59,988 bases of DNA from positions 1 to 59,988 of the forward strand of contig CADBYZ010000022.1 of the NCBI GenBank assembly GCA_902799075.1. Reading direction: 5' to 3'. The notes under the pieces were generated by a model. The model did no database searches. It saw only the letters and a program-made list of their open reading frames with translations, and was not told where the DNA came from. Each line of letters begins with the position of its first letter. Position 1 is the first letter of the stretch. This stretch comes from Oscillospiraceae bacterium (GTDB lineage: Bacteria > Bacillota > Clostridia > Oscillospirales > Oscillospiraceae). Made by a program: the position numbers and the translations under genes. Below are positions 22,437 to 38,759 of this stretch, one piece after another.

Positions 22437-22513
22437 TGGACAAACTGTTAAGCTGCTGTTATAATAGCATACAAGAGCTTGCTTGTGTAGCGTAAAATTT
22501 GTGAATCTTCACA
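22437..22513 (+). promoter_or_regulatory. TRAP operon promoter and palindromic operator candidate
   Basis: TGGACA (22437-22442), 17 nt, TATAAT (22460-22465) is a near-consensus promoter. At 22500-22513, just past the expected start site, TGTGAA-TC-TTCACA forms a palindrome suited to a dimeric repressor. No regulator gene is adjacent. Confidence 0.75.
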
Positions 22514-22569
22514 GCTTTGCATACTATCACAAGAGCTGCGTAAAAATTCTGAAATTGGAGGAAAACAAG

Positions 22570-23568: not shown

Positions 23569-23607
23569 GTTCTTTCACCTGTAATCAACGTAAATCACAA
23601 AGCCTGA

Positions 23608-23645
23608 GGGGCGCAGGGGAAGTCCCCCTGCGCCCCCGGTTTTTA
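23608..23645 (+). terminator. Intercistronic terminator/attenuator between dctP and dctQ
   Basis: GGGGCGCAGGGG / CCCCCTGCGCCCC with an AAGT loop, then CGGTTTTTAT. It probably allows partial readthrough so that binding protein exceeds permease. Confidence 0.85.
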
Positions 23646-23681
23646 TCCCGCTAAGAAATCGTAAAGAAAGGGGTTTTCGCT

Positions 23682-24212
23682 TTGCCTGCATTTTTCCGCA
23701 CGCTTGAGAAAATCAGGCCCCTGTACGACTGGACGTACAAGATCATCATGTTCATCTGCAAGCTGCTGCTCATCGGCGATATCCTCATCACCTCCTGGGC
23801 CGTGGCCGGACGCTACATCCCGTTTATCACCGACCCCCACTGGAGCGAGGAAATCGTGCTGACCTTCATGGTCTACATGGCGGTCCTCTCCGCAACCCTC
23901 GCCATCCGCAAGGGCGCGCATATCCGCATGACCGCCTTCGACACCTACCTGCCCAAAAAGGTGCTGGTGGTGTCCGACATCCTGGCCGATCTCGCCGTCA
24001 TGATCCTGGGCATCATCCTCGTGGTCTACGGCATCCGCTTCTGCAATTCTCCCCTGAGCCTGCGCGGCAAGTATGCCTCCATCCCCACCCTCGGTAAGGT
24101 GTGGCAGTATCTGCCGGTCCCGGTGGCCGGTATCGGCATGATTATTTTCGAGCTGGAGCAGGTTTTCCTGCACGTCGAACAACTCTTTGTGAAGGAGGAT
24201 AAAAAGGCATGA
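23682..24212 (+). CDS. dctQ: TRAP transporter small permease (DctQ family)
   Basis: A 176-residue membrane protein with four helices (about 20-42, 60-77, 95-118, 138-160) and the DctQ motif WSEEIVLTFMVYMAVLSATLAIRKGAHIRM, split for description, including Glu-Glu and RKGAHI. It bridges DctM and the binding protein. The best start is TTG 23682, with AAAGGGG 8 nt upstream; no ATG is suitably placed. Its stop overlaps the dctM start (ATGA). Confidence 0.92.
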   Translation: MPAFFRTLEKIRPLYDWTYKIIMFICKLLLIGDILITSWAVAGRYIPFITDPHWSEEIVLTFMVYMAVLSATLAIRKGAHIRMTAFDTYLPKKVLVVSDILADLAVMILGIILVVYGIRFCNSPLSLRGKYASIPTLGKVWQYLPVPVAGIGMIIFELEQVFLHVEQLFVKEDKKA

Positions 24213-25516
24213 GTGGTGAAGCTTTATCGACGCTCGTCCTTCTGGGCAGCTTTTTTGTCTTCATTATCCTGCGCTTCCCGATCGCCTACTCGGTCGGCCT
24301 TTCCACGGTGCTGTGCATGATCTCCATGGGGCAGAACATCGTCACGCTGCCGCAGCAGATGGTCAAGGGCATCTGGTCCTTCTCCCTGATGGCCGTTCCC
24401 TTCTTCATCACCATGGGCGTCCTGATGGGCACCGGCGGCATCTCCGACAAGCTGATCGCGTTGGCAAACTCGCTGGTCGGCTGGATGCGCGGCGGCCTTG
24501 CAATGGTCAACATCGTGGCCTCCTACTTCTTCGGCGGCATCTCCGGCTCCGCCTCGGCGGACACCGCCTCCCTCGGCTCCATCCTCATTCCCATGATGGT
24601 GGACGAGGGCTATGACGCCGACTTCTCCACCGCCGTCACCATCACCTCCTCCTGCGAGGGCCTGCTGGTCCCGCCGAGCCACAACATGGTCATCTACGCC
24701 ACCTCCGCGGGCGGCGTGTCCGTGGGCGCACTGTTCATGGCGGGCTATGTTCCCGGCGCCATCCTCGCCATCGCGCTGATGGTCGGCTCCTACATCCTCT
24801 CCGTCAAGAACAACTACCCCAAGGGCAAGCCCTTCTCCCTGTCCAACTTCTTCAAGCAGATCGGCAAGTCCATCTGGGCGCTGCTGGCCGTGCTGATCGT
24901 GGTCGTGGGCGTCGTGGGCGGCGTCTTCACCGCCACCGAGTCCGCCGCCATCGCGGTCATCTACTCCCTGATCGTGTCTGTGTTCATCTATAAGGGCCTC
25001 GACTGGAAGGGCGTCTGGAAGAGCCTGGAGCAGTGCATCGACACCCTCGCCATCGTGCTGATCCTCATCGCCATGAGCGCGGCCTTCGGCAACTGCCTGA
25101 TGACCCTCCTGCACGTTCCCGCCAAGGCGGCCACCTTCATCACCAGCATCTCCTCCAACCGCGTGGTCATCATCATCCTGCTCAACCTGATCCTCCTGCT
25201 GCTGGGCATGATCATGGATATGGCGCCGATCATCCTGATCGCCACGCCCATCCTGCTGCCGGTCGCGCAGAGTGTCGGCCTGCACCCGGTCCAGTTCGGC
25301 ATCATGATGGTGCTCAACTGCGGCATCGGCCTGCTGACCCCGCCTGTCGGCGCGGTGCTGTTCATCGGCTCCGCCGTGGCAAAGCGCCCGATGGAGAAGG
25401 TCGTCAAGGCCACCCTGCCGTTTTACGTGTGCATGATCATCGCCCTGCTGCTGATCTCCTTCATCCCGTCCATCAGCCTCTGGCTGCCGCGGATCACCGG
25501 CTCCCTGATCGGATAA
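24209..25516 (+). CDS. dctM: TRAP transporter large permease (DctM family)
   Basis: The 435-residue, about 12-helix permease is the ion-coupled transport subunit. It shows the family features FRFPIAYSVG-like start (LRFPIAYSVGLST), FFGGISGSASADTASLGSIL (the first helical hairpin) and the second-half LNCGIGLLTPPVGAVLF. Length is typical (about 425-435). It starts inside the dctQ stop (ATGA overlap) after GGAGGAT. The operon continues 10 nt later with the cupin gene. Confidence 0.95.
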   Translation: MSGEALSTLVLLGSFFVFIILRFPIAYSVGLSTVLCMISMGQNIVTLPQQMVKGIWSFSLMAVPFFITMGVLMGTGGISDKLIALANSLVGWMRGGLAMVNIVASYFFGGISGSASADTASLGSILIPMMVDEGYDADFSTAVTITSSCEGLLVPPSHNMVIYATSAGGVSVGALFMAGYVPGAILAIALMVGSYILSVKNNYPKGKPFSLSNFFKQIGKSIWALLAVLIVVVGVVGGVFTATESAAIAVIYSLIVSVFIYKGLDWKGVWKSLEQCIDTLAIVLILIAMSAAFGNCLMTLLHVPAKAATFITSISSNRVVIIILLNLILLLLGMIMDMAPIILIATPILLPVAQSVGLHPVQFGIMMVLNCGIGLLTPPVGAVLFIGSAVAKRPMEKVVKATLPFYVCMIIALLLISFIPSISLWLPRITGSLIG

Positions 25517-25909: not shown

Positions 25910-26728
25910 TTATTCGTTCAAGAAGTTCTCAAAGTTTTTGCCCAGGATCATCTCGTTGAGCTCGTCGCCGAGGCCCAGGGAGAAGAAGCGCGCCAGCTCC
26001 TCGCCCGGCTCCCACATGGGGTAGTCCGTGCCGAAGAAGATGTGCGTGGGGTCAAAAAGCGCGATCGCCTTTCTCGCCGCCTCATAGGCATTGAAGGGGA
26101 GGGTGCTGCTGGTGTCGATGTAGACATTGGGCAGGTTCAGGCACTCGCGTGCCTCCGTCCACTCGCTCCAGCCGCCGCAGTGAGGGGCGACGCAGCGGAG
26201 CTTCGGGAAGGTCTTCGCCACATGCGCCATGCGGCTCGGGGTGGAATAGTCAAAGCGGTAGTCGCCGGTATGGGCGATGAGAAAGAGGTTTTCCGCGCTC
26301 ATGATCTCGTAGAGCGGCATGAGGCGTTCGTCGTCGAGCTTGAAGCGCTGAATGTCCGGGTGGAGCTTGATGCCCACAAGGCCGAACTCCTTCATGCGCC
26401 TGACCTCGCTCTCAAAGTCCGGGTAGTCCGGGTGCATGGTGCCGACGCCGATGAGCTGCGGGTTTTCCCGGCAGGTATCGCGGATGAAGCGGTTGATGAC
26501 CTCCACCTGGTGCGGCGCTGTGGCGGTGGAGAAGACCACGGCGCGGTCAACACCGTCGGTTTCCATGCGGGGCAGCAGGTCCTTCACGGTGCCCGGCAGA
26601 TGGCCGAGGTTTACCGGGGCGGGGATCTCCTCATTGCAGGAGCCCTCGTAAAAGCTGTTGGTCGCCAGCACCGCCGCCAAGGCGATGTTGGGCTGAAAGA
26701 TGTGCACATGGGAGTCGATAATGAGCAT
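25910..26728 (-). CDS. Amidohydrolase family TIM-barrel metal-dependent hydrolase
   Basis: The 272-residue cytoplasmic protein is an amidohydrolase_2-type enzyme: DSHVHIFQP (metal-binding HxH), VGIKLHPDIQRF (strand with Lys/His), LIAHTGDYRFDY, APHCGGWSEW (His) and FGTDYPMWEP (metal-binding Asp). The family includes decarboxylases, lactonases and hydrolases. The substrate is not evident. It converges with the TRAP/KdgF operon, which does not prove a shared pathway. The ATG follows AGGTGA. Confidence 0.88.
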   Translation of the reverse strand: MLIIDSHVHIFQPNIALAAVLATNSFYEGSCNEEIPAPVNLGHLPGTVKDLLPRMETDGVDRAVVFSTATAPHQVEVINRFIRDTCRENPQLIGVGTMHPDYPDFESEVRRMKEFGLVGIKLHPDIQRFKLDDERLMPLYEIMSAENLFLIAHTGDYRFDYSTPSRMAHVAKTFPKLRCVAPHCGGWSEWTEARECLNLPNVYIDTSSTLPFNAYEAARKAIALFDPTHIFFGTDYPMWEPGEELARFFSLGLGDELNEMILGKNFENFLNE

Positions 26729-26833: not shown

Positions 26834-26862
26834 TTGACGCTGGGGGAGGGCTGTGGTAAAAT
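26834..26862 (+). promoter_or_regulatory. Promoter of the first T-box operon
   Basis: TTGACG (26834-26839), 17 nt, TAAAAT (26857-26862). The expected start is near 26869, at the 5' end of the T-box leader. Confidence 0.8.
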
Positions 26863-26868
26863 TCCGCC

Positions 26869-27136
26869 TGTAAACAGCGATGAAGGAAAATCGCTTCCGT
26901 ATGAGCGGCACAGAGAACCGGCGGGCGGTGTGAGCCGGTGCGTAAATCGGAAAGCGTCTCGTTCCCGAGCGGGATCTGCGAACACGGGCGGTCAGTAGCG
27001 GATCACGGGAGGCCCCGTTACAGGCCATGGGCTTATTGGAGCCCGAGAGAGTCCGCCGCGTGTCGGTGGAGAACCAGGGTGGTACCGCGAGTTAACATTC
27101 GCCCCTGAGGTCATAAAGACCTCGGGGGTTTATCTT
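26869..27136 (+). ncRNA. T-box leader, Leu-type specifier (CTC)
   Basis: Typical parts are visible: AGAGAACCGG...GTGAGCCGGT in the distal stem I, the T-box sequence AGGGTGGTACCGCG (27076-27089) whose TGGT would pair with an uncharged tRNA end, and a terminator CCCCTGAGGTC / GACCTCGGGG then TTTATCTTTT (27102-27136). Aligning the segment GTTCCCGAG (26961-26969) with the equivalent region after the glycine specifier in B. subtilis glyQS places CTC (26958-26960) as specifier, so tRNA-Leu. The specifier call rests on spacing, and the usual AGTA/GAA loop is not clear. Uncharged tRNA would prevent termination and switch on the LeuA-like gene. Confidence 0.85.
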
Positions 27137-27161
27137 TTATCTTGCAAAGGAAGTGCGCAGA

Positions 27162-28577
27162 ATGGACAAAATCCGCATCAGCGACATTACAATGAAACAG
27201 CTTGCCAAACAGGCTGACCACAGCCTGAGCTTCAAGGGCAAGCTTGAAATCTCCAAGCTTCTGGACAAGCTGGCCGTCTCGGTCATCGAGATCGAGGGCA
27301 TCCGCACGGGCCGGGCCGACGCCCTGCGTGTCAAGTCCATCGCCTCGGCGGTAAAGGGAAGCATTGTGGCGGTGCCCGTGGAGCTCAACGCCGAGAGCGT
27401 CAACGAGACCTGGGAGGCACTCAAGGGGGCAAAGCACCCGCGGCTCCAGGTCACGGCCCCGGTCAGCACCGTGCAGATGGAGTACCTGTCCCGCAAAAAG
27501 CCGGACGCCATGCTCGCCTGCATCGAGGAGATCGTGAGGGCCTGCGCGGAGAAGACCGAAGATGTGGAATTCATCGCCGAGGACGCCACGCGCAGCGACG
27601 CGGCCTTTTTGCGCAAAGCCATCGAGACCGCCGCCGCGGCGGGCGCGAAGACCGTCACCGTCTGCGACGCCACCGGCGCCCTGCTGCCGGAGGAACTGGC
27701 GGACTTTCTGAAAAATCTGCTCGACACCGTCCCGGCCCTCCATGATGTGACCCTGGGCGTGGCCTGCGCCAACACCATGGCCATGGCGGACGCCTGCGCT
27801 GTCGCAGCCGTGAGAGCCGGCGCGCGCGAGGTCAAGACCGCCGCCGTGGGCGATACCGCCTCCCTCCAGAACGTGGCGGGCATTCTTGCCGCGAGAGAGG
27901 AGCTTTTCCAGGTCACATGTCCCCTGCACACGGTGGAGCTCAAGCGCATCGTGCGGCAGATCGTGTGGATGGTGGAGACCAAGCGCAACAAGACCTCGCC
28001 CTTTGACGACGGGGTGCAGGACGCGGCGAAAGAGCTGTCCCTGGCTCTCGGCGACGATGCAGCCAGCGTTGCCCAGGCCGCCCGCGATCTGGGCTATGAC
28101 TTAAACCCCGAGGACACCCAGGCTGTGTGGGAGGCTGTGCAGGATCTGCTGCGCCACAAGGAGCAGGTGGGCGCGCGGGAGCTCGACGCTATCATCGCCT
28201 CGGTTGCCCTCCAGGTGCCGCAGAGCTATACCGTGGAGAGCTACGTCATCAACAGCGGCAGCAACATCTCCGCCATGGCCCATATCAAATTAAGCCGCGA
28301 GGGCGAGATGCTCGAGGGCGTGGCCCTGGGCGATGGACCGATCGACGCCTCCTTCCTCGCGCTCGAGAAGGTGGTCAACCGCCACTACGAGCTGGACGAC
28401 TTCCAGATCCGCGCCGTCACCGAGGGCCGTGAGGCCATGGGCGAGACGGTGGTGCGTCTGGTGTCCAACGGCAAGCTCTATTCCGGGCGCGGCATCTCCA
28501 CCGACATCGTGTTTTCGAGTATCCAGGCTTATGTGAACGCACTCAACAAGATCGCGTATGAGGAGGGTGAGGCATGA
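27162..28577 (+). CDS. LeuA-like protein lacking catalytic residues (2-isopropylmalate synthase homologue)
   Basis: The 471-residue protein follows the 2-isopropylmalate synthase layout: TIM-barrel region (about 1-255), helical linker, and a C-terminal LeuA dimer/allosteric domain (about 345-465; VESYVINSGSNISAMAHIKL, and ELDDFQIRAVTEG...SGRGISTDIVFSSIQAYVNALN) that binds leucine in true LeuA. The barrel lacks the expected catalytic signature: where LeuA has DTTLRDGEQ the sequence reads SDITMKQLAKQADHS, and the metal-binding HxHND is replaced by ACANT (in LGVACANTMAMAD). It may be a leucine-sensing pseudoenzyme or have a new activity. It is controlled by a Leu-type T-box. ATG 27162 has AAAGGA 10 nt upstream. 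The next gene overlaps by 4 nt. Confidence 0.75.
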   Translation: MDKIRISDITMKQLAKQADHSLSFKGKLEISKLLDKLAVSVIEIEGIRTGRADALRVKSIASAVKGSIVAVPVELNAESVNETWEALKGAKHPRLQVTAPVSTVQMEYLSRKKPDAMLACIEEIVRACAEKTEDVEFIAEDATRSDAAFLRKAIETAAAAGAKTVTVCDATGALLPEELADFLKNLLDTVPALHDVTLGVACANTMAMADACAVAAVRAGAREVKTAAVGDTASLQNVAGILAAREELFQVTCPLHTVELKRIVRQIVWMVETKRNKTSPFDDGVQDAAKELSLALGDDAASVAQAARDLGYDLNPEDTQAVWEAVQDLLRHKEQVGARELDAIIASVALQVPQSYTVESYVINSGSNISAMAHIKLSREGEMLEGVALGDGPIDASFLALEKVVNRHYELDDFQIRAVTEGREAMGETVVRLVSNGKLYSGRGISTDIVFSSIQAYVNALNKIAYEEGEA

Positions 28578-30031
28578 AGCTTTCCTTTTCCACCCGCGGC
28601 TGGCAGAGACTCAGCTGGGACGAGCTGCTTGCCTCCGCCGAAGAGAGCGGCATGAACGGCATCGAGCTCTATGATCTCTTCAAACGCGAAGACCTCATCG
28701 ACCGCGGCTGCCCCTTCGACCGCTACCGCGCCGCCACGACGGTAAGGCAGCTGCGTGAGAAGGGTATGGCGATCCCGTGCCTTGACAGCTCCATCGACCT
28801 CTCGCTCCCGGAAACCGGGCTCAAGGACGTGAAGTGGCTGCTTGAAACGGCGGGAAGCATCCGCACGCCATATGTCTCCGTGGTCGCCCTGGAGGACAGG
28901 GAGGACCTGGTGCGTGAGCGCGTAAAAGAACTCCTGCCCTGCGCCGAAAAAGCGGAGGTCACGCTGCTCATCAAGACCACCGGCATCTATTCCGACACAG
29001 GCAGGCTCCGCGCCCTGATGGACGACTTCGCCAGCGACAGCCTGGCCGCCCTCTGGGATATCCATCACCCCTGCCACGACTGCGGCGAGGATGCCGACAC
29101 CACCATCAAAAATCTCGGTGCCTACGTGCGCCATGTGCATATCCGCGACTCGGATGAGGCGGGCGGCTATACCATCATCGGCGAGGGCAATCTGCCGGTC
29201 GATGAGATGATCCGCGCCCTCGGCTCCATCGACTACGACGGCTATATCTCACTGGTATGGAAGCCGGAGTGGATCGAGGACCTGGACGATCCTGACATCA
29301 TCTTCCCCCATTTCGTCAACTACATGGGCCGCTTCGAGAACACCCGCGGCAAGAAAAAGCGTCTCTACCCCAACCACGACGGCACCGGCGAATATGTCTG
29401 GAAAAAGGACGAGCTGCTGGATCTGACCTTCTCCCAGGTGCTCGACCGCATGGTGGAGGAGTTCCCCGACCAGTATGCCTTCAAGTACACGACCCTCGAC
29501 TACACCCGCACCTACGAGGAATTTCGTGAAGACGTGGACCGCTTTGCCCGCGCTCTGGTCTACCTCGGTGTGCGGCCGGGCAGCAAGGTCGCCGTCTGGG
29601 CCACGAACGTCCCGGCCTGGTACATCACCTTCTGGGCCACCGTCAAGCTCGGCGCTGTGCTCGTCACGGTCAACACCGCCTACAAGAGCCACGAGGCCGA
29701 ATACCTTCTGCGCCAGTCCGACACCCACACGCTCGTGATGATCGAATCGTGCCTTGACTCCGACTACCGCGCCATCATCAACGAGCTCTGCCCCGAATTA
29801 AAGGGCCACGACAAGGACAAGCCCCTGCACTGCCGCAAGCTGCCGTTTCTCAGAAACGTCATCACCGTCGATTTCCGGCAGGAGGGCAGCCTCACCTTCG
29901 AGGAGGCCATGGCCCGTTCCGACATGGTGCCTCAGGAGACGGTCAACGCCATGGCCCGACGACGTGTGCAACATGCAGTACACCTCCGGTACCACGGGCT
30001 TTCCCAAGGGCGTCATGCTCACGCACTATAA
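28574..30031 (+). pseudogene. TIM-barrel/acyl-CoA synthetase fusion, N-terminal part (frameshifted)
   Basis: The frame starts inside the LeuA-like stop (ATGA). Residues 1 to about 250 form a xylose-isomerase/AP-endonuclease-2-type TIM barrel (MKLSFSTRGWQRLSWDELL, ALWDIHHPCHDCGED, YVRHVHIRD, GEGNLPVDEMI). From about 280 an AMP-binding acyl-CoA synthetase begins (YTRTYEEFREDVDRFARALV, PAWYITFWATVKLGAVLVTV). After ETVNAMA (about 29955) the frame goes off and ends at 30031, whereas the enzyme continues in another frame from about 29958 (DDVCNMQYTSGTTG). A few residues also seem missing at the junction. Either an inactivated gene or a sequencing error. A fused TIM barrel is unusual for this enzyme class. 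Confidence 0.75.
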
Positions 30032-31037
30032 CGTCATCAACAACGGCAAGTGCATCGGCGACCGCATGGGTCTCTCGACCGCCGACCGCATGATGATCCA
30101 GGTGCCCATGTTCCACTGCTTCGGCATGGTCCTGTCCATGACCTCCTCCCTGACCCACGGCGCGACCGTCTGCCCCATGCCGTATTTCTCGGCAAAGAGC
30201 TCGCTTGCCTGCATCCGCCAGGAGAAGATCACCTGCTTCAACGGCGTGCCGACGATGTTCATCGCCATGTTCAACCACCCGGATTACCGGAAGACAGACT
30301 TTTCCCACATGCGCACCGGCATCATGGCGGGCGCGGGCTGCCCGCCGGAGCTCATGCGCCGCGCCGCCCAGCCCGACGAGATGCACATGATCGGCATCGT
30401 CTCCGTCTACGGCCAGACCGAATCCGCCCCCGGCAGCACCATGTCCGCCTGGACCGACTCCATCGACGTGCGCACCGACACCGTGGGCTACGCCTTCCCG
30501 CATGTGGAGTGCAAGATCATCGACCCCGAGACCGGGCGGGAGCTCGGCGACAATGAGACGGGTGAATTCTGCTCCCGCGGGTATAATACCATGAAGGGCT
30601 ATTACAAGATGCCCAGGGCCACGGCTGAGACGGTGGACAGTGAGGGATGGCTCCACTCCGGTGATTTGGCGGTACGTGATGAAAACGGCAACTACCGCAT
30701 CACGGGCAGACTCAAGGACATGATCATCCGCGGCGGTGAGAACATCTACCCCAAGGAGATCGAGGAGTTCATCTACACCCACCCCAAGGTGCAGGACGTG
30801 CAGGTCATCGGCGTGCCGGACAAGAAGTACGGCGAGGAGGCCTACGCCGCCATCATCTTAAAGGAGGGCGAGACCATGACCGAGGAGGAGATGCGCAAGT
30901 ACATCACCGACCATATGGCCCGTCACAAGGTCCCGCGCTATATCACCTTCACCGACAGCTTCCCCATGAACGCGGCAGGCAAGATCCTGAAATATAAAAT
31001 GAGAGAGGACGCGGCAAAAGCGCTGAATCTCGTTTGA
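29964..31037 (+). pseudogene. Acyl-CoA synthetase (AMP-forming), C-terminal part of the frameshifted fusion
   Basis: This frame resumes the AMP-binding domain of the previous gene: MQYTSGTTGFPKGVML (P-loop-like ATP motif), VSVYGQTESAP (motif A5), GWLHSGDLAVRDENGNYRI and GRLKDMIIRGGENIYPKEIE (hinge and A8), and AAGKILKYKMRE with the catalytic Lys (A10). The sequence resembles medium/short-chain FadD-type ligases. The expected reaction is carboxylic acid + ATP + CoA to acyl-CoA + AMP + PPi. It is not likely to be a separate gene: the GTG at 29964 has no ribosome binding site. Context suggests isovalerate as substrate (inference from the Leu T-box). Confidence 0.75.
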
Positions 31038-31094
31038 CAAAAACCCCGGATTTCGTCAAAAAGGCGAAACTCTTTCAATGGATAAGGATTCTCC

Positions 31095-31124
31095 TTGACA
31101 AAAGCATAAAATTGCGGTAATAAT
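31095..31124 (+). promoter_or_regulatory. Promoter of the second T-box operon
   Basis: TTGACA (31095-31100), 18 nt, AATAAT (31119-31124). It lies just upstream of the second T-box leader and downstream of the first operon. Confidence 0.7.
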
Positions 31125-31130
31125 TGAGGC

Positions 31131-31393
31131 AACATTCACAAAGGCTGTGACGAAGACGGTCGAAGGGAAGCGTTATCAGAGAGCCGACGGACGGTGCGAG
31201 TCGGAAACGCCAGCTTCAAGGGCCCATCACTTCCGAGCCGGAGACCTGAAAGGCATCGCCGAGTAAGCGCCTCCCGTTCCGCCCGCGTTAAGGGATAGGG
31301 CCTGTTGGGGCCTGAAGCGGCAGCGAAAGCTGCAATTTGAGTGGTACCGCGGGATTAACAGCTCGCCTCAAAATCGTTTTTGAGGCGGGCTTT
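31131..31393 (+). ncRNA. T-box leader, Ile-type specifier (ATC)
   Basis: Visible parts: CAGAGAGCCGACGG...GTGCGAGTCGG in distal stem I, T-box core GAGTGGTACCGCG (31339-31351), and a terminator CGCCTCAAAA / TTTTTGAGGCG then CTTTTTT (31364-31396). The conserved segment ACTTCCGAG (31229-31237) follows ATC at 31226-31228, in the same spacing as CTC in the first leader, which suggests tRNA-Ile as ligand. The specifier loop deviates from the AGTA/GAA pattern, so the assignment is probable rather than certain. Confidence 0.85.
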
Positions 31394-31425
31394 TTTCTTC
31401 GAGTAAAAGACAAGGAGAAATGTCT

Positions 31426-33720
31426 ATGAACGTACAGACCGCAGACAATCAGCTTCTGCAGATCGCGCTCCGTATCCGTGAGCTGCGCGACATCGTGGGC
31501 TTTTCCACCGAGGAGATGGCGGCCCGCACCGGCATCACCGAGGCGCAGTACATCGAGTACGAGTCCGGCCGGGTGGACCTGCCCTTCACCTTCCTGCATA
31601 AGGCGGCCATGGCCATGGGCGTCGAGCCCATCCAGCTCCTGGAAGGCCGCAGCGCAAGGCTGACCTCCTACGCGGTGAACCGCCGCGATCAGGGCCTTGT
31701 GACCGCCGTGGAGGACGGCATCGTCATCCAGAACATGGCGGCGCTGTTTCGCAAAAAGATGGCTACGCCCTACTGGGTCACCTACCAGTACTCCGCCGAG
31801 CTCCAGAACGAGCCCATCCACACCACCACCCACGCGGGCCAGGAATTTGACCTCATCATCTCCGGCACCCTGCGTGTGCGCATCGGCGAACATGAGGAGA
31901 TCCTGCACGAGGGCGACAGTATCTACTACGACAGCTCCACGCCCCACGGCATGATTGCCATTGATGGCAAGGACTGCACCTTCCTCGCCATGATCATGGC
32001 GGCGGACGAGACCGTCCAGAAGCCCGGCCTCATGCAGGCGGAGGAGGAAGAGACCAAGCCCGCCGTCAAGCCCGAGCGGGAGCCGCTGCTGTGCGAGAAA
32101 TTCATCGAGGCCGAGGAGGACGCAAACGGCGTGCTCAAGGATCTGCGCTTCAAGAACGAGGACAGCTTCAACTTCGCCTTTGACATTGTTGACGAGATCG
32201 CCCGCAAGACGCCCGAGAAGCTTGCCATGCTTCATGTCGCAAACGACATGACTGAGCGGCGCTTCACCTTCAAGGATATCAAGGACGCCTCCTCTCAGGC
32301 GGCAAACTACTTTACCTCCCTCGGCATCAGGCGCGGCGACCGCGTTATGCTCGTGCTCAAGAGGCACTACCAGTTCTGGTTCTCGATCCTCGGCCTGCAC
32401 AAGCTGGGCGCCATCGCCATTCCCGCCACCAACCAGCTCCTCAGCCACGACTTTGAGTACCGCTTCAAGGCGGCGGGCGTGTCCGCCATCGTCTGCACCG
32501 GCGACGGCGACGTCGCCCACCAGGTGGAGCTGGGCGAGCAGGCAGCGGGCATGAGCGTCACCAAGATCATGGTCAATGGCAAACGCGAGGGCTGGCACGA
32601 CTTCGACGGCGAGTACGGCCTTTTCTCCCGCCGCTACCGCCGCAGCGAGACTTCCCCCTGCGGGGACGACCCCATGCTCATGTTCTTTACCTCCGGCACC
32701 ACGGGCTACCCGAAGATGGCGCTGCACAGCTACAAATACGCCCTCGGCCACTATGTCACCGCCCGCTACTGGCACATGGTGGAGCGCGACGGTCTGCACT
32801 TCACCATCTCCGAAACCGGCTGGGGCAAGGCGCTCTGGGGCAAGCTCTACGGCCAGTGGTTGTGCGAGGGCGCGGTCTTCACCTATGACTTTGACCGCTT
32901 TGACGCCGAGAAGATCCTGCCCATGTTTGCAAAGTACAACATCACCACCTTCTGCGCGCCGCCCACCATGTACCGTATGCTCATCAAGAGCGACATCTCC
33001 AAGTACGATCTCTCGTCCATCCGCCACGCCACCACGGCGGGCGAGGCATTGAACCCCGAGGTCTTCTATCAGTTTGAAAAGCTCACGGGCCTCAAGCTTG
33101 CGGAGGGCTTCGGCCAGACCGAGATGACCCTCGGCATCGCAAATCTCCCGGGCAGTACGATCAAGCCGGGCTCCATGGGCAAGCCCGTCCCTGGCTACGG
33201 CATCGACATCCTCGACCGCGACGGCAACCCCGTCGAGGACGGTATCAGCGGCGAGATCGTCATTAAAGCCGATGAAAACGGCAAGCGCAAGTGCGGCCTC
33301 TTCCTCGGCTACTATCAGGCCCCGGAGAAGACGAAAGAGGTCTGGCACGACGGCTACTATCACACCGGCGACGAGGCCTGGCGCGATGAGGACGGCTTCA
33401 TCTGGTACGTTGGCCGCGTGGACGATGTCATCAAATCCTCCGGCTACCGCATCGGGCCCTTCGAGATCGAAAACGTCATCATGGAGCTGCCTTATGTTCT
33501 CGAGTGCGGCGTCTCCGCAGCCCCTGACGAGATCCGCGGTCAGGTCGTCAAGGCCAGCATCGTGCTGGTCAAGGGCAAGGAGGGAACCGAGGAGCTCAAG
33601 AAGGAGATCCAGAACTACGTCAAGCAGCACACCGCGCCCTACAAGTATCCGCGTATTGTCGAGTTCAAGGATGAGCTGCCCAAGACGATCAGCGGTAAGA
33701 TCATGAGAAATAAGCTGTAA
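31426..33720 (+). CDS. HTH-cupin-acyl-CoA synthetase fusion protein
   Basis: The 764-residue protein joins three modules. Residues about 8-70 are an XRE-type helix-turn-helix (RIRELRDIVGFSTEEMAART). About 95-190 is a cupin (HTTTHAGQEFDLIISG, STPHGMIAI), as in XRE-cupin regulators. About 225-760 is an AMP-forming acyl-CoA synthetase of the ACSM type (MFFTSGTTGYPKMALHS, ISETGWGKALWG, EGFGQTEMTLG, GRVDDVIKSSGYRIGPFE, TISGKIMRNKL with the catalytic Lys). ATG 31426 is preferred because AAGGAG is 8 nt upstream; an ATG at 31420 is too close. Under an Ile-type T-box and upstream of vorB and ilvE, it plausibly activates 2-methylbutyrate. DNA binding is inferred. Confidence 0.88.
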   Translation: MNVQTADNQLLQIALRIRELRDIVGFSTEEMAARTGITEAQYIEYESGRVDLPFTFLHKAAMAMGVEPIQLLEGRSARLTSYAVNRRDQGLVTAVEDGIVIQNMAALFRKKMATPYWVTYQYSAELQNEPIHTTTHAGQEFDLIISGTLRVRIGEHEEILHEGDSIYYDSSTPHGMIAIDGKDCTFLAMIMAADETVQKPGLMQAEEEETKPAVKPEREPLLCEKFIEAEEDANGVLKDLRFKNEDSFNFAFDIVDEIARKTPEKLAMLHVANDMTERRFTFKDIKDASSQAANYFTSLGIRRGDRVMLVLKRHYQFWFSILGLHKLGAIAIPATNQLLSHDFEYRFKAAGVSAIVCTGDGDVAHQVELGEQAAGMSVTKIMVNGKREGWHDFDGEYGLFSRRYRRSETSPCGDDPMLMFFTSGTTGYPKMALHSYKYALGHYVTARYWHMVERDGLHFTISETGWGKALWGKLYGQWLCEGAVFTYDFDRFDAEKILPMFAKYNITTFCAPPTMYRMLIKSDISKYDLSSIRHATTAGEALNPEVFYQFEKLTGLKLAEGFGQTEMTLGIANLPGSTIKPGSMGKPVPGYGIDILDRDGNPVEDGISGEIVIKADENGKRKCGLFLGYYQAPEKTKEVWHDGYYHTGDEAWRDEDGFIWYVGRVDDVIKSSGYRIGPFEIENVIMELPYVLECGVSAAPDEIRGQVVKASIVLVKGKEGTEELKKEIQNYVKQHTAPYKYPRIVEFKDELPKTISGKIMRNKL

Positions 33721-33721
33721 A

Positions 33722-34423
33722 ATGAACCATAAACGTCTTACCCTCTTTGCCGGACATTACGGCAGCGGAAAAACCAATATTGCCTTAAACTACGCCCTAT
33801 GGCTCAGGAGTCAGGGATTGAAGGTCACGGTCGCAGACCTGGACATCGTAAACCCCTACTTCCGCACCAAGGACGGGGCCGAGCAGCTGGAGGCCGCAGG
33901 CGTGCGCCTCATTTCCTCTGACTACGCAAACTCCAACGTCGACCTGCCTGCCCTGCCCGGTGAAGCGTATTCCCTCGTGGACGACAAGAGCGCCTGCGGC
34001 GTCATCGACGTGGGCGGCGACGACCGCGGGGCCCTGGCCCTGGGCCGCTATGTCCCCGGCATACGGGAGGAAAACGACTACGAGATGCTGTTTGTCCTCA
34101 ACAGGGCCCGCCCCCTGACGCGGAATATTGATGACGCGCTGGAGGTTTTTTACGAGATCGAGGCCGCGTGCAGTCTTCCCTTTACCGCGATCGTGAACAA
34201 CACGAACCTCGGCCCGCTGACGAAGGCGGAGGACGTGATCGCGGGAGAGCGTTTCGCACAGGAGTTTGCCGAGAGGGTCAAGCTTCCGGTCAAGATGAGC
34301 TGCGCGTCCGAAAAGCTCAGTAAAGAGCTTCAAAACAAAGTGAGCAATTTCTTTCCTATACAGATCATGCAACTATACTACATGGAGAAAGAAGGAACAA
34401 GCCTTGGCAAAATTAACCTTTAG
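33722..34423 (+). CDS. MinD/ParA-like P-loop ATPase
   Basis: A 233-residue cytoplasmic protein with a deviant Walker A GHYGSGKTNIALNYA, switch-like VADLDIVNPYFRT and GVIDVGGDD as Walker B. Such ATPases are often seen beside 2-oxoacid:ferredoxin oxidoreductase genes in Clostridia; a role in cofactor or complex assembly is possible but unproven. It starts 1 nt after the previous stop codon, with no strong ribosome binding site, so translational coupling is likely. Its 3' end overlaps the ferredoxin start by 20 nt. Confidence 0.82.
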   Translation: MNHKRLTLFAGHYGSGKTNIALNYALWLRSQGLKVTVADLDIVNPYFRTKDGAEQLEAAGVRLISSDYANSNVDLPALPGEAYSLVDDKSACGVIDVGGDDRGALALGRYVPGIREENDYEMLFVLNRARPLTRNIDDALEVFYEIEAACSLPFTAIVNNTNLGPLTKAEDVIAGERFAQEFAERVKLPVKMSCASEKLSKELQNKVSNFFPIQIMQLYYMEKEGTSLGKINL

Positions 34424-34535
34424 ACTCAACCAAAAAGGATATTCCCCCGTGGAGCTGACAAAGCCCGAGGAGTGCATCGGATGTGCTAGCTGCGCCATGA
34501 TGTGCCCCGACTGCGTCATCACCGTGGAGCGTTAA
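34404..34535 (+). CDS. Short ferredoxin-like subunit with one 4Fe-4S motif (internal deletion suspected)
   Basis: The 43-residue frame starts at TTG 34404 (GAAGGA 9 nt upstream): MAKLTF, then [17 protein letters not shown], then [14 protein letters not shown] and VITVER. In the delta subunits of Vor/Kor oxidoreductases the product is about 65-70 residues with two 4Fe-4S motifs, the first (CKGCGLC...CP) between MAKLTF and the NQKGY segment. That first half is absent here, which fits an in-frame deletion of about 27 codons. With only one cluster it could still work, but electron transfer would differ. It is followed 16 nt later by vorB. Confidence 0.75.
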
Positions 34536-34551
34536 GGAAAGGAGCAGGCGT

Positions 34552-34926
34552 ATGAGTGAAACCGTCCTGATGAAAGGAAACGAAGCGATCGCCGAGGCCG
34601 CCATTCTGGCCGGCTGCCGCCATTACTTCGGCTATCCCATCACCCCGCAGACCGAGGTCGCCGCTTACATGGCCAAGAAGATGCCCAAGATCGGCGGCAC
34701 CTTCCTCCAGGCCGAGAGCGAGATCGCGGCCATCAAGAGGGAATCTCTTACCTCGCGGGCGCGGATCTGCCCGCCCTCATCATCAATGTCCAGCGCGGCG
34801 GCCCCGGTCTCGGCGGCATCCAGCCCTCCCAGTCCGACTACTTCCTGGCCACCCGCGGCCCCGGCCACGGCGATTTCCACGTGCTGGTCTTTGCCCCCTC
34901 CTCTGTGCAGGAAATGGCGGACCTGA
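34552..34926 (+). pseudogene. vorB: 2-oxoacid:ferredoxin oxidoreductase alpha subunit VorB, N-terminal part (frameshifted)
   Basis: The start (AGGAGCAGGCG then ATG) and [20 protein letters not shown] through [19 protein letters not shown] and [11 protein letters not shown] match the N-terminal pyrimidine-binding domain of VorB. After ATC at 34732-34734 the frame leaves the family sequence. VorB proteins have about 26 more residues here (a segment with a run of Ser and ISL-Q) before EGISYLAG, which is found in another frame from 34737. So about 76-79 nt are missing and the frame is shifted. The enzyme normally interconverts branched 2-oxoacids and acyl-CoA with ferredoxin. Confidence 0.8.
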
Positions 34927-35546
34927 CCGGCCGCGCCCTGCACCTTGCCTGGAAGTACCGCATGCCCGCCATGCTGCTGGCTGACGGCACCATGGGCCAG
35001 ATGATGGAGCCCGTGAACCTGCCCGAGCCCTCCAATGCCTTCGGCGACGACAATCCCTGGGCCGCCACCGGCACCGAGATGAAGCGTCCCCACAATATTA
35101 TCACCTCTCTCGACCTCTCCCCGGAGAACCTCGAGAAGCAGAACTTCGAGCGCTTTGAGCGCTACAAGAAGATCGAAGAGTCCGAGTGCCTCTGGGAAGA
35201 GTACATGATGGACGACGCCGAGATCTGCATTGTCGCCTGCGGCATCACCGCCCGCGTCTCCCGCAACGCCATCGTGGAAGCCAGAAAGCAGGGCATCAAG
35301 GTCGGCATGCTCCGTCCCATCACCCTCTGGCCCTTCCCGAAGAAGGCCCTTGCCGCCGCTGCCGAGAAGGTCAACGCCTTCCTGTGCGTGGAGATGAACA
35401 TGGGCCAGATGAAGGAAGACGTGGAGCTCGCCATCCGCTGCAAGAAGCCTGTTGAGCTTTGCAGCCGTGTCGGCGGCATGATCCCCACCCCGGATGAGGT
35501 CCTCGCGCACATCCGCAAAATCGCAGAAGGAGGAAAAGAAGCATGA
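34737..35546 (+). pseudogene. vorB: VorB alpha subunit, C-terminal part (frame continued from 34737)
   Basis: From GAG 34737 the frame reads [40 protein letters not shown], then [15 protein letters not shown] (the first Met codon of this frame is at 34881) and continues to GKEA at 35546. ADGTMGQMMEPVNLPE and the C-terminal GMLRPITLWPFPKKAL are family hallmarks. The part is otherwise complete and overlaps the next gene by 4 nt (ATGA), so the operon spacing is intact. If the deletion is a consensus error the locus would encode a normal alpha subunit of about 350 residues. Confidence 0.8.
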
Positions 35547-36280
35547 TCGTGTTTGAAAAGCCCCATGCCTTGACTGACACCGTGCTGCACTACTGCCCGG
35601 GCTGCACCCACGGCATCGTGCACCGCCTGGTCGCCGAGGCCATCGACGAGCTCGGCATCGAGGGTAAGACCGTCGGCATCGCGCCGGTCGGCTGCTCGGT
35701 GCTTGCCTACAACTACTTTAACTGCGACATGATCGAGGCCGCCCACGGCCGCGCCCCCGCTGTCGCCACCGGCGTCAAGCGCGCCCTGCCCGACAACATC
35801 GTCTTTGCCTACCAGGGCGACGGCGACCTTGCCTCCATCGGCATGTGCGAGACGGTCTCTACCGCGGCCCGCGGCGAGAATATCACCGTCATCTTTATCA
35901 ACAACGCCATCTACGGCATGACCGGCGGCCAGATGGCCCCCACGTCCCTCATCGGCCAGGTCACTCAGACCTCTCCCTACGGCCGCGACCCCAAGACCCA
36001 GGGCTATCCGATTCGCGTCTGCGAGCTGCTGGCGACCCTCGATGCGCCCCAGTACCTCGAGCGTGTCACCGTCAACAACGTCAAGAACGTCCGCAACGCC
36101 AAGCGCGCCATCAAGAAGGCCTTCCAGAACCAGATCGACGGCAAGGGCTTCTCCTTCATCGAGGTCCTCTCCGCCTGCCCGACCAACTGGGGCATGACGC
36201 CGCAGAAGGCCCTCCAGTGGATCGACGAGGCCATGATCCCCCAGTACCCGCTGGGCGTGTTCCGGGATAAGGAGGCGTAA
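35543..36280 (+). CDS. 2-oxoacid:ferredoxin oxidoreductase, TPP-binding beta subunit
   Basis: The 245-residue subunit contains [14 protein letters not shown] (Cys-Pro-Gly-Cys TPP/cluster region), [13 protein letters not shown] (GDG, start of the TPP motif) and the later [19 protein letters not shown] (NN motif end). It forms the catalytic thiamine diphosphate site with VorB. The reaction links a 2-oxoacid with acyl-CoA, CO2 and reduced ferredoxin. Length and order (alpha, beta, gamma) are typical of the Vor/Kor group. The start overlaps the alpha stop by 4 nt. Confidence 0.94.
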
Positions 36281-36283
36281 GAT

Positions 36284-36814
36284 ATGGCACATCATGAAAT
36301 CGTAATCGCGGGCTTTGGCGGACAGGGCCTGCTGTTCATCGGCAAGGTGCTGGCCTACGCGGGCCTCGTTGAAAAGCGTCAGTTGCCCTCCTACGGCCCC
36401 GAGATGCGCGGCGGCACCGCCAACTGCAACGTCATCCTCTCCGACGATCCCGTCGGTTCCCCCATCGTGCAGCATCCCAACGTGCTCATCGTCATGAACA
36501 CCCCGTCGCTTGACAAGTACGAGGACGCGGTCGTCCCCGGCGGCAAGATCTTTGTCGACTCCACCCTCATCTCCCGCAAGGTCCGGCGCGACGACGTGGA
36601 TGTCTACTATGTCCCCGCAACGCAGATGGCCAAGGACATGGAGCTTAAAAACCTCGCCAACATGATCCTGCTCGGAACCGTCATCCGCGAGACGAAGTGC
36701 ATCAAGGACGAGACGGTGGAGGACGCGCTCAAGCACGTCATCCCCGCCCGCAAGATGAACCTCATGGATGTAAACCTCAAGGCCATCCAGGCCGGGAAGG
36801 ACTATCAGCCGTGA
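36284..36814 (+). CDS. 2-oxoacid:ferredoxin oxidoreductase gamma subunit
   Basis: The 176-residue protein starts MAHHEIVIAGFGGQGLLFIG, the family's glycine-rich N-terminus, and has SYGPEMRGGTANCNVILS, typical of the CoA-binding gamma subunit. It completes the alpha-beta-gamma-delta set of a Vor/Kor enzyme. The ATG, 3 nt after the beta stop, follows GGAGGCG. The stop overlaps the next gene's GTG start (GTGA). Confidence 0.94.
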   Translation: MAHHEIVIAGFGGQGLLFIGKVLAYAGLVEKRQLPSYGPEMRGGTANCNVILSDDPVGSPIVQHPNVLIVMNTPSLDKYEDAVVPGGKIFVDSTLISRKVRRDDVDVYYVPATQMAKDMELKNLANMILLGTVIRETKCIKDETVEDALKHVIPARKMNLMDVNLKAIQAGKDYQP

Positions 36815-37596
36815 AAACCGCCTGCGCCCAGATGGATGTGCGCCTCGGCGACAGCGCCTACAACCTGCCGCACGCGCTGGAGCTTATACGCCGGGCTGCG
36901 GCGGAAGGCGCGGATACCGTGCTGCTGCCGGAGACTTTTAATATAGGCTTCTTCCCGCGGGAAAACCTCGCGGAACTGGCTGACCGCGACGGCGAGATCA
37001 TCAAAATGGCCTTCGGCGCGCTCGCGGCAGAGCTGCACATCAACCTTGTCGCGGGCTCCGCGGTGACAAACCGGGGCGGCAAGATCTACAATACCGCCTA
37101 TGTCTTTGACCGCGACGGCGCGTGCATCGCCTCCTACGACAAGACCCACCTCTTCACCCCCATGGGGGAGCATGACTACTTCACCCCCGGCAAGCAACTT
37201 TGCACCTTCACGCTTGACGGCGTGAAATGCGGGCTCATCATCTGCTACGACCTGCGCTTTCCGGAGCTGACGCGCACGCTGGCCCTGCAGGACATCGAAC
37301 TGCTCTTTGTCCCGGCCGAGTGGCCCGGCGTCCGCCGCGCCCACTGGCAGACCCTCAACCGCGCCCGCGCCATCGAAAACCAGATCTTCCTCGCCTGCTG
37401 CAACGGCTGCGGCACAGCGGGGGAGACGGTCTACGGCGGGTCCTCCGCGATCTACGACCCCTGGGGCGAGATCAAGGCGGAGGCGGGCACGCAGGAGGAG
37501 ATCATCCTTGCCGACTGCGACTTTGCCGTCAAGGAACAGATCCGCAACAGCATCCATGTCTTCCGGGACAGACGCCCTGAATTATATCAATTGTAA
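36811..37596 (+). CDS. Carbon-nitrogen hydrolase (nitrilase superfamily, omega-amidase/Nit2-like)
   Basis: A 261-residue cytoplasmic enzyme with the Glu-Lys-Cys triad in LLPETFN (Glu), YDKTHLFTP (Lys) and GLIICYDLRFPEL (Cys). The closest recognisable branch is the Nit2/omega-amidase group, which hydrolyses alpha-keto acid amides or other amides; the substrate here is unknown. It starts at GTG 36811 within the gamma stop and precedes ilvE by 14 nt, so it is part of the Ile-type T-box operon. A role in 2-oxoacid amide repair or nitrogen supply is a guess. Confidence 0.86.
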   Translation: MKTACAQMDVRLGDSAYNLPHALELIRRAAAEGADTVLLPETFNIGFFPRENLAELADRDGEIIKMAFGALAAELHINLVAGSAVTNRGGKIYNTAYVFDRDGACIASYDKTHLFTPMGEHDYFTPGKQLCTFTLDGVKCGLIICYDLRFPELTRTLALQDIELLFVPAEWPGVRRAHWQTLNRARAIENQIFLACCNGCGTAGETVYGGSSAIYDPWGEIKAEAGTQEEIILADCDFAVKEQIRNSIHVFRDRRPELYQL

Positions 37597-37610
37597 GGAG
37601 TAATGCCACT

Positions 37611-38705
37611 ATGGAATACAATTTTCCCGTGACCCGTACCACCCATCCCAAGCCCCGGCCCGCGGATGAGAGCAAGCTCGGCTTTGCCCAGTACTTCACC
37701 GACCACATGTTCTGCATGGATTGGGACGAGGGCCAGGGCTGGCATGACGGACGCATCGTCCCCCATGCCCCCATCGAGATCGAGCCCGCCTCCTGCGTGC
37801 TGCACTACGCGCAGATGATGTTCGAGGGCATGAAGGCCTACAAGACCCCCTCCGGCGCCATCCAGATCTTCCGCCCCGAGATGAACATCGCCCGCATGGC
37901 CCGCACCTGCGAGCGCATGTGCATCCCCGAGCTGCCCGGTGATCTCTTCCTCGCCGCCGTCAAGGCCGTCATCTGGGAAGACCGCGACTGGATCCCGTCT
38001 TCTCCCGGTACTGCCCTGTATATCCGCCCCTTCATCTTCGGCGATGAGGTCTCCTTCTCCGTCCTGCCCGCCAAGCACTACCGCTTCATGATCATCCTTA
38101 CCCCGACCGGCTCCTACTACGCCGCCAACGACGGCGGCCTTGCCACCACCCGCATCTTCGTGCAGGATGAGTATATCCGCGCGGCCCGCGGCGGCACGGG
38201 CTTTGCCAAGGTCGGCGGCAACTACGGCGGCGGCATGCGCGCCTCCCTCGACGCCATGAAGTATAACTGCAAGGACGTTCTCTGGCTCGACGCTGCCGAG
38301 CACAAGTATGTCGAAGAGATCGGCACCTCCAACGCCTTCTTCCGCATCAATGACGAGGTCATTACTGCGCCCCTGGATTCCGGCACGATCCTGCCCGGCA
38401 TCACCCGCAACTCCGTCATCCAGCTCCTCAAGAAGTGGGGCGTCAAGGTCTCCGAGCGCAAGCTTGCCATCGACGACATTATCGCCGCCTCCAAGGACGG
38501 TTCCCTGCAGGAGATCTTCGCCAGCGGCACCGCGGCGGTCATTTCTCCCATCGGCTGCCTGAACTTCATGGGCACCGACTATAAGGTCGCCGATGAGCAG
38601 GTCGGCCCCGTGGCCCAGAAGCTGTACGACACCCTCTACGGCATCCAGACCGGCAAGGTCGAGGACGACATGGGCTGGACCTACAAGCTCTTCGATCTCA
38701 AATAA
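37611..38705 (+). CDS. ilvE: Branched-chain amino acid aminotransferase
   Basis: The 364-residue fold-type IV PLP enzyme transfers an amino group between glutamate and branched 2-oxoacids. Landmarks: VLHYAQMMFEGMKAYKTPSG, RPFIFGDE, AKVGGNYGGGMRAS (PLP-binding Lys), EEIGTSNAFFRIN and FASGTAAVISPIG. Length and motifs fit the eukaryote-like/BCAT II group. It is the last gene of the Ile-type T-box operon, followed by a terminator, and would turn the Vor products into Val, Leu or Ile. RBS AAGGAG is 8 nt before the ATG. Confidence 0.95.
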   Translation: MEYNFPVTRTTHPKPRPADESKLGFAQYFTDHMFCMDWDEGQGWHDGRIVPHAPIEIEPASCVLHYAQMMFEGMKAYKTPSGAIQIFRPEMNIARMARTCERMCIPELPGDLFLAAVKAVIWEDRDWIPSSPGTALYIRPFIFGDEVSFSVLPAKHYRFMIILTPTGSYYAANDGGLATTRIFVQDEYIRAARGGTGFAKVGGNYGGGMRASLDAMKYNCKDVLWLDAAEHKYVEEIGTSNAFFRINDEVITAPLDSGTILPGITRNSVIQLLKKWGVKVSERKLAIDDIIAASKDGSLQEIFASGTAAVISPIGCLNFMGTDYKVADEQVGPVAQKLYDTLYGIQTGKVEDDMGWTYKLFDLK

Positions 38706-38726: not shown

Positions 38727-38759
38727 GCCCCTCGGCGAAAATCGCCGAGGGGCATTTTT
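38727..38759. terminator. Terminator of the Ile T-box/vor/ilvE operon
   Basis: GCCCCTCGGCGA / TCGCCGAGGGGC, 12 bp, followed by ATTTTTA. It also lies at the end of the convergent GH94 gene. Confidence 0.92.

Follow-up and report, generated by a model that had tools for sequence, protein, structure and literature searches.

Codon-matched T-box leaders ahead of acid:CoA ligase genes point to branched-chain amino acid synthesis from branched short-chain acids in an Oscillospiraceae genome

The stretch of DNA analysed here (the window) is a 59,988-nucleotide sequence of an Oscillospiraceae bacterium, contig CADBYZ010000022.1 of assembly GCA_902799075.1, listed as C22 among the 116 contigs of the draft genome G000, which spans 2.41 Mb and is 75.7% complete. 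It contains two neighbouring operons, each headed by a T-box leader and each encoding an acyl-coenzyme A (acyl-CoA) ligase, and together with related loci these very probably belong to a system that makes branched-chain amino acids from preformed branched short-chain acids. The clusters look built so that each amino acid has its own RNA switch before its own acid-activating enzyme. In the proposed mechanism, an uncharged branched-chain transfer RNA (tRNA) would cause the cognate T-box to permit transcription of a dedicated gene for an acid:CoA ligase. The Leu T-box would control a ligase fused to a triosephosphate isomerase (TIM) barrel, with isovalerate as the proposed substrate; the Ile T-box would control a ligase fused to helix-turn-helix (HTH) and cupin parts, with 2-methylbutyrate as the proposed substrate; and a Val T-box on another contig (C40) would control a paralogous HTH-cupin-ligase, with isobutyrate as the proposed substrate. 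A shared 2-oxoacid:ferredoxin oxidoreductase (Vor) would carboxylate the acyl-CoA using reduced ferredoxin, and IlvE would transaminate the resulting 2-oxoacid. LeuA2, a relative of 2-isopropylmalate synthase (LeuA) with a leucine-type regulatory domain, is probably the leucine-sensing partner of the Leu branch.

The first leader matched the Rfam covariance model RF00230 with 102.4 bits, above the gathering score of 93, and its specifier, taken as the base triplet just 5' of the final loop base before the closing helix, was CUC (Leu). The second leader, with the specifier AUC (Ile), scored 76.6 bits, under the gathering score, with a full-length match and an E-value of 8.7e-17 over the 701 bases searched. 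The covariance search and the specifier rule confirmed the Leu-type and Ile-type T-boxes named in the original prediction, which was made from the DNA letters of this stretch, and both specifiers fit branched-chain rather than unrelated tRNAs. Hairpins with a T-run, found by consensus match only, directly followed the T-box core at 27101 and 31360. The scans returned 7 promoter-like and 5 terminator-like sites, where shuffled sequence gave 3.1 and 10.5; these totals carry no weight and the positions alone are informative. Seven T-boxes were found in G000, for one of which (contig C3) the specifier rule gave no answer. The same rule read UUC before pheS-pheT, GUC upstream of the valine--tRNA ligase gene with one 173-residue frame between, and UGG (Trp) before an ABC_sub_bind gene (L050 4625-5773, G000:C80), a case reportedly like that of TrpX of Streptococcus suis. 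A third T-box for a branched-chain amino acid, with the specifier GUC (Val), was located on contig C40 directly 5' of an HTH-cupin-ligase paralogue 58% identical to that of the window. The predicted pair of Leu and Ile operons was therefore correct as far as it went, but a valine branch had been overlooked. In another genome of the genus (G014), an AUC T-box and its ligase came first, and behind them lay a second ligase with a GUA T-box ahead of it, then the P-loop ATPase and Vor.

The pairing of codon and gene was also seen across related loci. A contig scan gave at least 595 pattern matches and at least 582 relatives, and the best 80 loci, the closest part of the family and for the most part from MAGs (metagenome-assembled genomes) of the rumen and hindgut, were compared. 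The first or only HTH-cupin-ligase carried an Ile specifier in 69/80 cases (no call in 7, core-only in 3, contig edge in 1), the second ligase a Val specifier in 39/61 (none in 19, core-only in 2, CCC in 1), and the LeuA2 gene a Leu specifier in 29/38 (core-only in 4, none in 5). In four loci searched with the covariance model, each of the three core-only places held a T-box, reading AUC for the first ligases of L069 and L119 and CUG for LeuA2 of L119. The CCC case (L083) was a misparse, in which AAG rather than GAG followed the helix and the codon is GUC. As a control, the procedure was applied to 8000 positions drawn at random from these loci. Of the 120 calls that resulted, 119 were ATC, GTA, CTG, CTC or GTC and one was TGG; this fits real T-boxes nearby and not noise. 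The genes downstream were counted in the 51 loci whose flank on that side reached 8 kb or more. The P-loop ATPase was present together with the complete set of three Vor subunits in 49 of them, a second ligase in 44, IlvE in 37 and the carbon-nitrogen hydrolase in 6; the last was among the matches listed in 7/80 loci. LeuA2 or its ligase lay within the same locus in 41/80. The best named relatives were MAGs with titles such as Oscillospiraceae, Clostridia or Ruminococcus, many of which came from ruminant gut sites (rumen, colon, rectum or caecum), together with Erysipelotrichaceae bacterium NK3D112, which we took to be an isolate from its title without "MAG".

The HTH-cupin-ligases themselves followed the codon of their T-box. 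In an alignment of 144 ligase rows, kept after partial or stop-bearing matches had been excluded, residue 469 was Gly in 74/74 ligases with an Ile T-box and Ala in 40/40 with a Val T-box, and the row of the misparsed CCC case had Ala. In rows with no T-box call, the residue tracked gene order: the second of two ligases had Ala in 17/17, the first of two Gly in 7/7 and single ligases Gly in 5/5. Residue 469 lies four places before W473, which corresponds by alignment to Trp259 of MacsMa, an acyl-CoA ligase of Methanosarcina acetivorans (3etc). Both W473 and G565 were found in all 144 rows, G565 being what we take, from its motif, to be the position of Trp416 of Acs. Other positions that discriminated the Ile from the Val type (472, 484, 486, 569, 571 and 572) lay near the 469 segment or just past the GFGQTE motif, and some others, such as 616, 620 and 757, lay away from both. 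Gly469 would leave room for a C5 acid and Ala469 would suit a C4 acid. On the tree of these ligases the Ile/Val label changed 5 times, compared with a mean of 32.8 and a minimum of 29 in 100 shuffles, and it still changed 5 times after eight hand-chosen columns of the pocket region had been removed. A clean split into an Ile clade and a Val clade was rejected, as the best single branch held 28/40 Val rows and no Ile row.

Among solved structures, MacsMa matched the Ile ligase best, with 636 bits against 344 bits for the next. The two are alike in ligase sequence and in the pocket Trp; the match spanned the ligase part only (query 244-763) and not the HTH-cupin part, and the Val-type form with Ala469 is an addition here. 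According to PMC10455477, the preferred substrate of MacsMa is 2-methylbutyrate.

Of the classical pathway, the ilvC gene (PF01450) was found in 0/19 genomes of the genus, 5/30 relatives and 14/14 controls. A survey of 147 genomes of the order found ilvC in 76 and an intact fused HTH-cupin-ligase in 47, with both in 9, the fused ligase only in 38, ilvC only in 67 and neither in 33. Thus ilvC was present in 9/47 genomes with the fused ligase and in 67/100 others (Fisher p = 5.5e-8, uncorrected for kinship). A ligase was counted as fused when a single listed match began at residue 15 or earlier and reached residue 763 or beyond in one frame without stops; genomes whose matches were truncated or held in-frame stops (G076, G101, G111, G033, G143, G094, G123 and G146, for example) went into the not-fused group. 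The TIM-barrel-ligase was found in 60/147 genomes, 13 of which had ilvC. Among the genomes behind named loci, whose completeness was not given, ilvC was present in 1/12 and absent from NK3D112. In G000 the sole protein with a LeuA_dimer domain was LeuA2, and the only match to the LeuC family was a 763-residue frame of aconitase size. The leuC model TIGR00170 gave 0/25 genomes above its cut-off; frames of LeuC size (424-500 residues) were seen in 7/25 and the rest were aconitase-sized or without a match, frame length being what would separate LeuC from aconitase here. The original prediction had proposed looking for ilvBCD and leuBCD elsewhere in the genome: ilvC and a LeuC-size frame were indeed not found, but one IlvD-family protein was kept. 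On the evidence of ilvC, LeuA and leuC, the classical branched-chain pathway appears to be absent from this genome, which is 75.7% complete and in which ilvB and leuB were not searched.

The biosynthetic direction, which had been argued from T-box control, thus gained further support, because the T-boxes matched by codon over 80 loci, the absence of ilvC, the co-location of Vor (49/51) and the preference of MacsMa, the nearest solved relative, for 2-methylbutyrate all point the same way. Several observations weigh against the proposed system. A dedicated T-box was not called for 19/61 second ligases. Among solved structures, the Leu ligase was nearest, in its C-terminal half, to fatty-acyl, feruloyl and coumarate ligases, and it is therefore the T-box and the neighbourhood alone that point to isovalerate. 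In the order, 9/47 genomes with the fused ligase retained ilvC and 33/100 without it also lacked ilvC; within the genus, the fused ligase was found in 2/19 genomes only (G000 and G014), so the ligase by itself does not account for the missing ilvC. Since G000 is incomplete, absences in this genome by itself are weak evidence. Its one IlvD-family protein scored 366 bits compared with 447-458 for the best match in each of five ilvC-bearing genomes; it may serve sugar acids. Finally, the ligase fusion, the ferredoxin and Vor alpha of the window were all broken as assembled, so that the cluster may have decayed or the MAG may be wrong.

These three lesions lay within about 5 kb: a frameshift in the TIM-barrel-ligase (28574-31037), an in-frame deletion in the ferredoxin (34404-34535) and a 76-nucleotide deletion in Vor alpha (34552-35546). 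The spacing in Vor alpha was 329 in the window and 402-408 in 57/57 measurable related loci, and the ferredoxin had one Cys cluster, with the first missing, where all 57 had two. If the lesions were genuine mutations, the cluster would be dead in G000, a reading compatible with synthesis by the family as a whole. We regard this as a real but less favoured possibility: it agrees with the clustering of the lesions, with both Vor lesions being found in 0/57 related loci and with the TIM-barrel-ligase being a single frame of 816-936 residues in 55/61 other genomes listed, whereas a MAG of 116 contigs and 75.7% completeness can contain assembly errors, and both T-boxes, the Ile ligase, LeuA2, Vor beta and gamma and IlvE were intact.

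The "LeuA-like protein" of the original prediction was homologous to LeuA, sharing its barrel fold and its LeuA_dimer domain (PF08502, 109 bits), but it cannot be taken as an enzyme at face value. Residues were counted in 40 sequences with a single open frame: that of the window, 37 from the 80 loci and two from further loci (LeuA2 of L084 had no such frame and was excluded). The Asp of the LRDG motif was kept in 0/40 and the Arg in 3/40, both His of the HCH motif in 0/40, and the stretch matching HESGIHQHG of LeuA was not conserved, whereas the GDG motif of the leucine domain was kept in 40/40, at identities down to 37%. From earlier work on LeuA, we take the Arg-Asp and His-x-His residues to be catalytic and GDG to lie near the leucine site. 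The predicted model (mean predicted local distance difference test score, pLDDT, 86.0; predicted template modelling score, pTM, 0.59) matched LeuA structures of M. tuberculosis, including the leucine-bound form 3fig. LeuA2 is thus a conserved pseudo-enzyme, a dead isopropylmalate synthase by its motifs, and its domain would still bind leucine. Such losses would also be expected if the Leu operon were a remnant of ordinary leucine synthesis, with LeuA decaying and the ligase serving an unrelated task, and the metal-site-like positions of the TIM barrel were variable too. We consider this improbable, since GDG was intact in all 40 sequences, though these were chosen for a single open frame, the Leu T-box was called for 29/38 LeuA2 genes, and the C-terminal half of the ligase was 54-90% identical among the loci compared.

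The acyl-CoA synthetase fusion predicted under the Leu T-box was a fusion as stated; its partner was an AP_endonuc_2 TIM barrel, and its frame in the window was broken near 29960. The barrel as an active metallo-isomerase became a weaker candidate, as a metal-site-like E was replaced by K in 25/37 sequences; the other such positions kept D in 30/37, H in 31/37 and E in 29/37, the assignment of metal-binding positions being our assumption from related isomerases. If LeuA2, retained solely for its leucine pocket, bound the TIM-barrel-ligase and stopped isovalerate activation under ample leucine, the Leu branch would be governed twice by leucine, through the T-box and through the protein, and with Gly/Ala469 the RNA codon would predict the substrate of the enzyme. 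We put this forward tentatively and give it somewhat less than even weight.

Two further readings were rejected on the logic of the T-boxes, the missing ilvC and the content of the operon. MbcS serves membrane branched-chain lipids, and the best NCBIfam model of the second synthetase was MbcS, so the ligases could supply branched acyl-CoA primers for membrane fatty acids with amino acids as a secondary use; this is very unlikely, as the match reached 431 bits against a cut-off of 850 and lipid priming needs neither separate Leu, Ile and Val T-boxes nor adjacent Vor and IlvE. Least credible of all is that Vor and the ligases degrade branched-chain amino acids to acids in a Stickland-type fermentation, for although Vor enzymes are reversible and run oxidatively in amino acid fermenters, codon-matched T-boxes would then induce degradation during starvation for its own substrate, all specifiers called for these gene classes were Leu, Ile or Val bar the one misparse, ilvC was missing in the genus, and IlvE lay downstream in 37/51 loci.

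The conversion proposed for these operons has a known physiological counterpart. Branched acids serve as feed supplements (isoacids), and their conversion in the rumen has been known since the 1960s. Carboxylation of branched-chain volatile fatty acids by rumen bacteria was reportedly described by Allison and co-workers between 1962 and 1971. That work concerned the same three pairs of acid and amino acid as proposed here, but as physiology, and the gene set, the three-way T-box control and the ligase code were not met in the literature searched. Passages of PMC7356843, citing Allison and others, describe the formation of Leu from isovalerate (in ruminococci), of Ile from 2-methylbutyrate and of Val from isobutyrate in the rumen, and passages of PMC10658910 describe the formation of Ile and Leu from branched acids by methanogens likewise. 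With known T-box leaders of amino acid genes (RF00230), those described here share the full-length covariance match, the specifier, the antiterminator core and, by consensus match, a terminator-like hairpin. The main text of the T-box survey PMC2494555 nowhere uses ferredoxin, oxidoreductase or acyl, and that of the survey PMC3766115 nowhere uses ferredoxin, oxidoreductase or acyl-CoA. No description of these operons was found in the openly licensed literature searched, mostly by title and abstract, outside which key T-box surveys lie; in this scope, nothing contradicted the original suggestion that pairing a separate acid-activating enzyme with each T-box is undescribed. New within the same scope are the set of genes, the trio of codon-matched switches, the correlation of residue 469 and the dead LeuA. 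They provide a concrete candidate gene set for the branched-acid chemistry of the rumen, in which each substrate prediction is testable by one assay. They also suggest that T-box codons could assign substrates to acyl-CoA ligases, a family that is hard to annotate, and draw attention to an inactive biosynthetic enzyme that may have been put to new use as a leucine sensor.

Table 1. Features of the two T-box operons in the window
Feature	Position	Strand	Basis
Promoter-like site TTGACG-17-TAAAAT, ahead of T-box 1	26834..26862	+	consensus scan
T-box leader 1, specifier CUC (Leu)	26871..27109	+	RF00230, 102.4 bits; specifier rule
Terminator-like hairpin of T-box 1	27101..27129	+	consensus scan
LeuA2, HMGL-like barrel and LeuA_dimer, pseudo-isopropylmalate synthase	27162..28577	+	Pfam; motif counts; model resembles LeuA
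AP_endonuc_2 TIM barrel and N-terminal part of acyl-CoA ligase, frame broken near 29960	28574..30031	+	domain matches, frames
C-terminal part of the same ligase (AMP-binding, AMP-binding_C), other frame	29964..31037	+	domain matches
Promoter-like site TTGACA-18-AATAAT, ahead of T-box 2	31095..31124	+	consensus scan
T-box leader 2, specifier AUC (Ile)	31138..31373	+	RF00230, 76.6 bits; specifier rule
Terminator-like hairpin of T-box 2	31360..31391	+	consensus scan
HTH-cupin-acyl-CoA ligase fusion (Ile type, Gly469), proposed 2-methylbutyryl-CoA synthetase	31420..33720	+	Pfam/NCBIfam; 3etc, 636 bits; residue 469
P-loop ATPase, weak CbiA/ParA match	33722..34423	+	Pfam
Ferredoxin subunit of Vor, start codon inferred from relatives	34404..34535	+	comparison with relatives
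Vor alpha, N-terminal part, 76 nucleotides missing near 34737	34552..34926	+	NF005507 match; spacing
Vor alpha, C-terminal part	34881..35546	+	NF005507 match
Vor beta, thiamine-diphosphate subunit	35543..36280	+	NCBIfam
Vor gamma	36284..36814	+	NCBIfam/Pfam
Carbon-nitrogen hydrolase (nitrilase family), occasional partner	36811..37596	+	Pfam CN_hydrolase
IlvE, branched-chain aminotransferase, last gene of the operon	37611..38705	+	NF009897, 444 bits, cut-off 307
Terminator-like hairpin after IlvE	38727..38753	+	consensus scan

The content of the second operon was largely as first described. Its acyl-CoA synthetase was a ligase, in fact part of an HTH-cupin-ligase fusion, and the P-loop ATPase, ferredoxin, Vor, nitrilase and IlvE were borne out, except that the ferredoxin and Vor alpha were not intact. 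The alpha, beta and gamma subunits of Vor were all present, with alpha interrupted. Among ten stretches of the window compared with NCBIfam, IlvE alone scored above its curated cut-off, and the matches of Vor alpha, beta and gamma were all below theirs. The P-loop ATPase is perhaps a maturation factor.

Several features around these genes and in related loci were also observed. Just upstream of the first operon lay genes of a tripartite ATP-independent periplasmic (TRAP) transporter of the DctP and DctM types (window 22483-25516), a possible importer, and, on the minus strand, a gene for an Amidohydrolase_2 protein (window 25910-26728), relatives of which, 35-41% identical, were among the matches listed in 17/80 loci. 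Around the Val T-box ligase of contig C40 (L021 9778-12126, G000:C40) no Vor gene was present within the 19 kb examined, and flavoprotein-like genes followed the ligase on the opposite strand. Two loci, L024 and L027 (G029:C29 and G028:C2), contained further Vor clusters with a P-loop ATPase and with the HTH-cupin and ligase parts separate or stop-bearing; no T-box was among the matches listed at these clusters, which are perhaps for another acid. The locus of the misparsed specifier, L083, also carried a tetrahydrofolate (THF) riboswitch at 3248-3348, with 74.6 bits.

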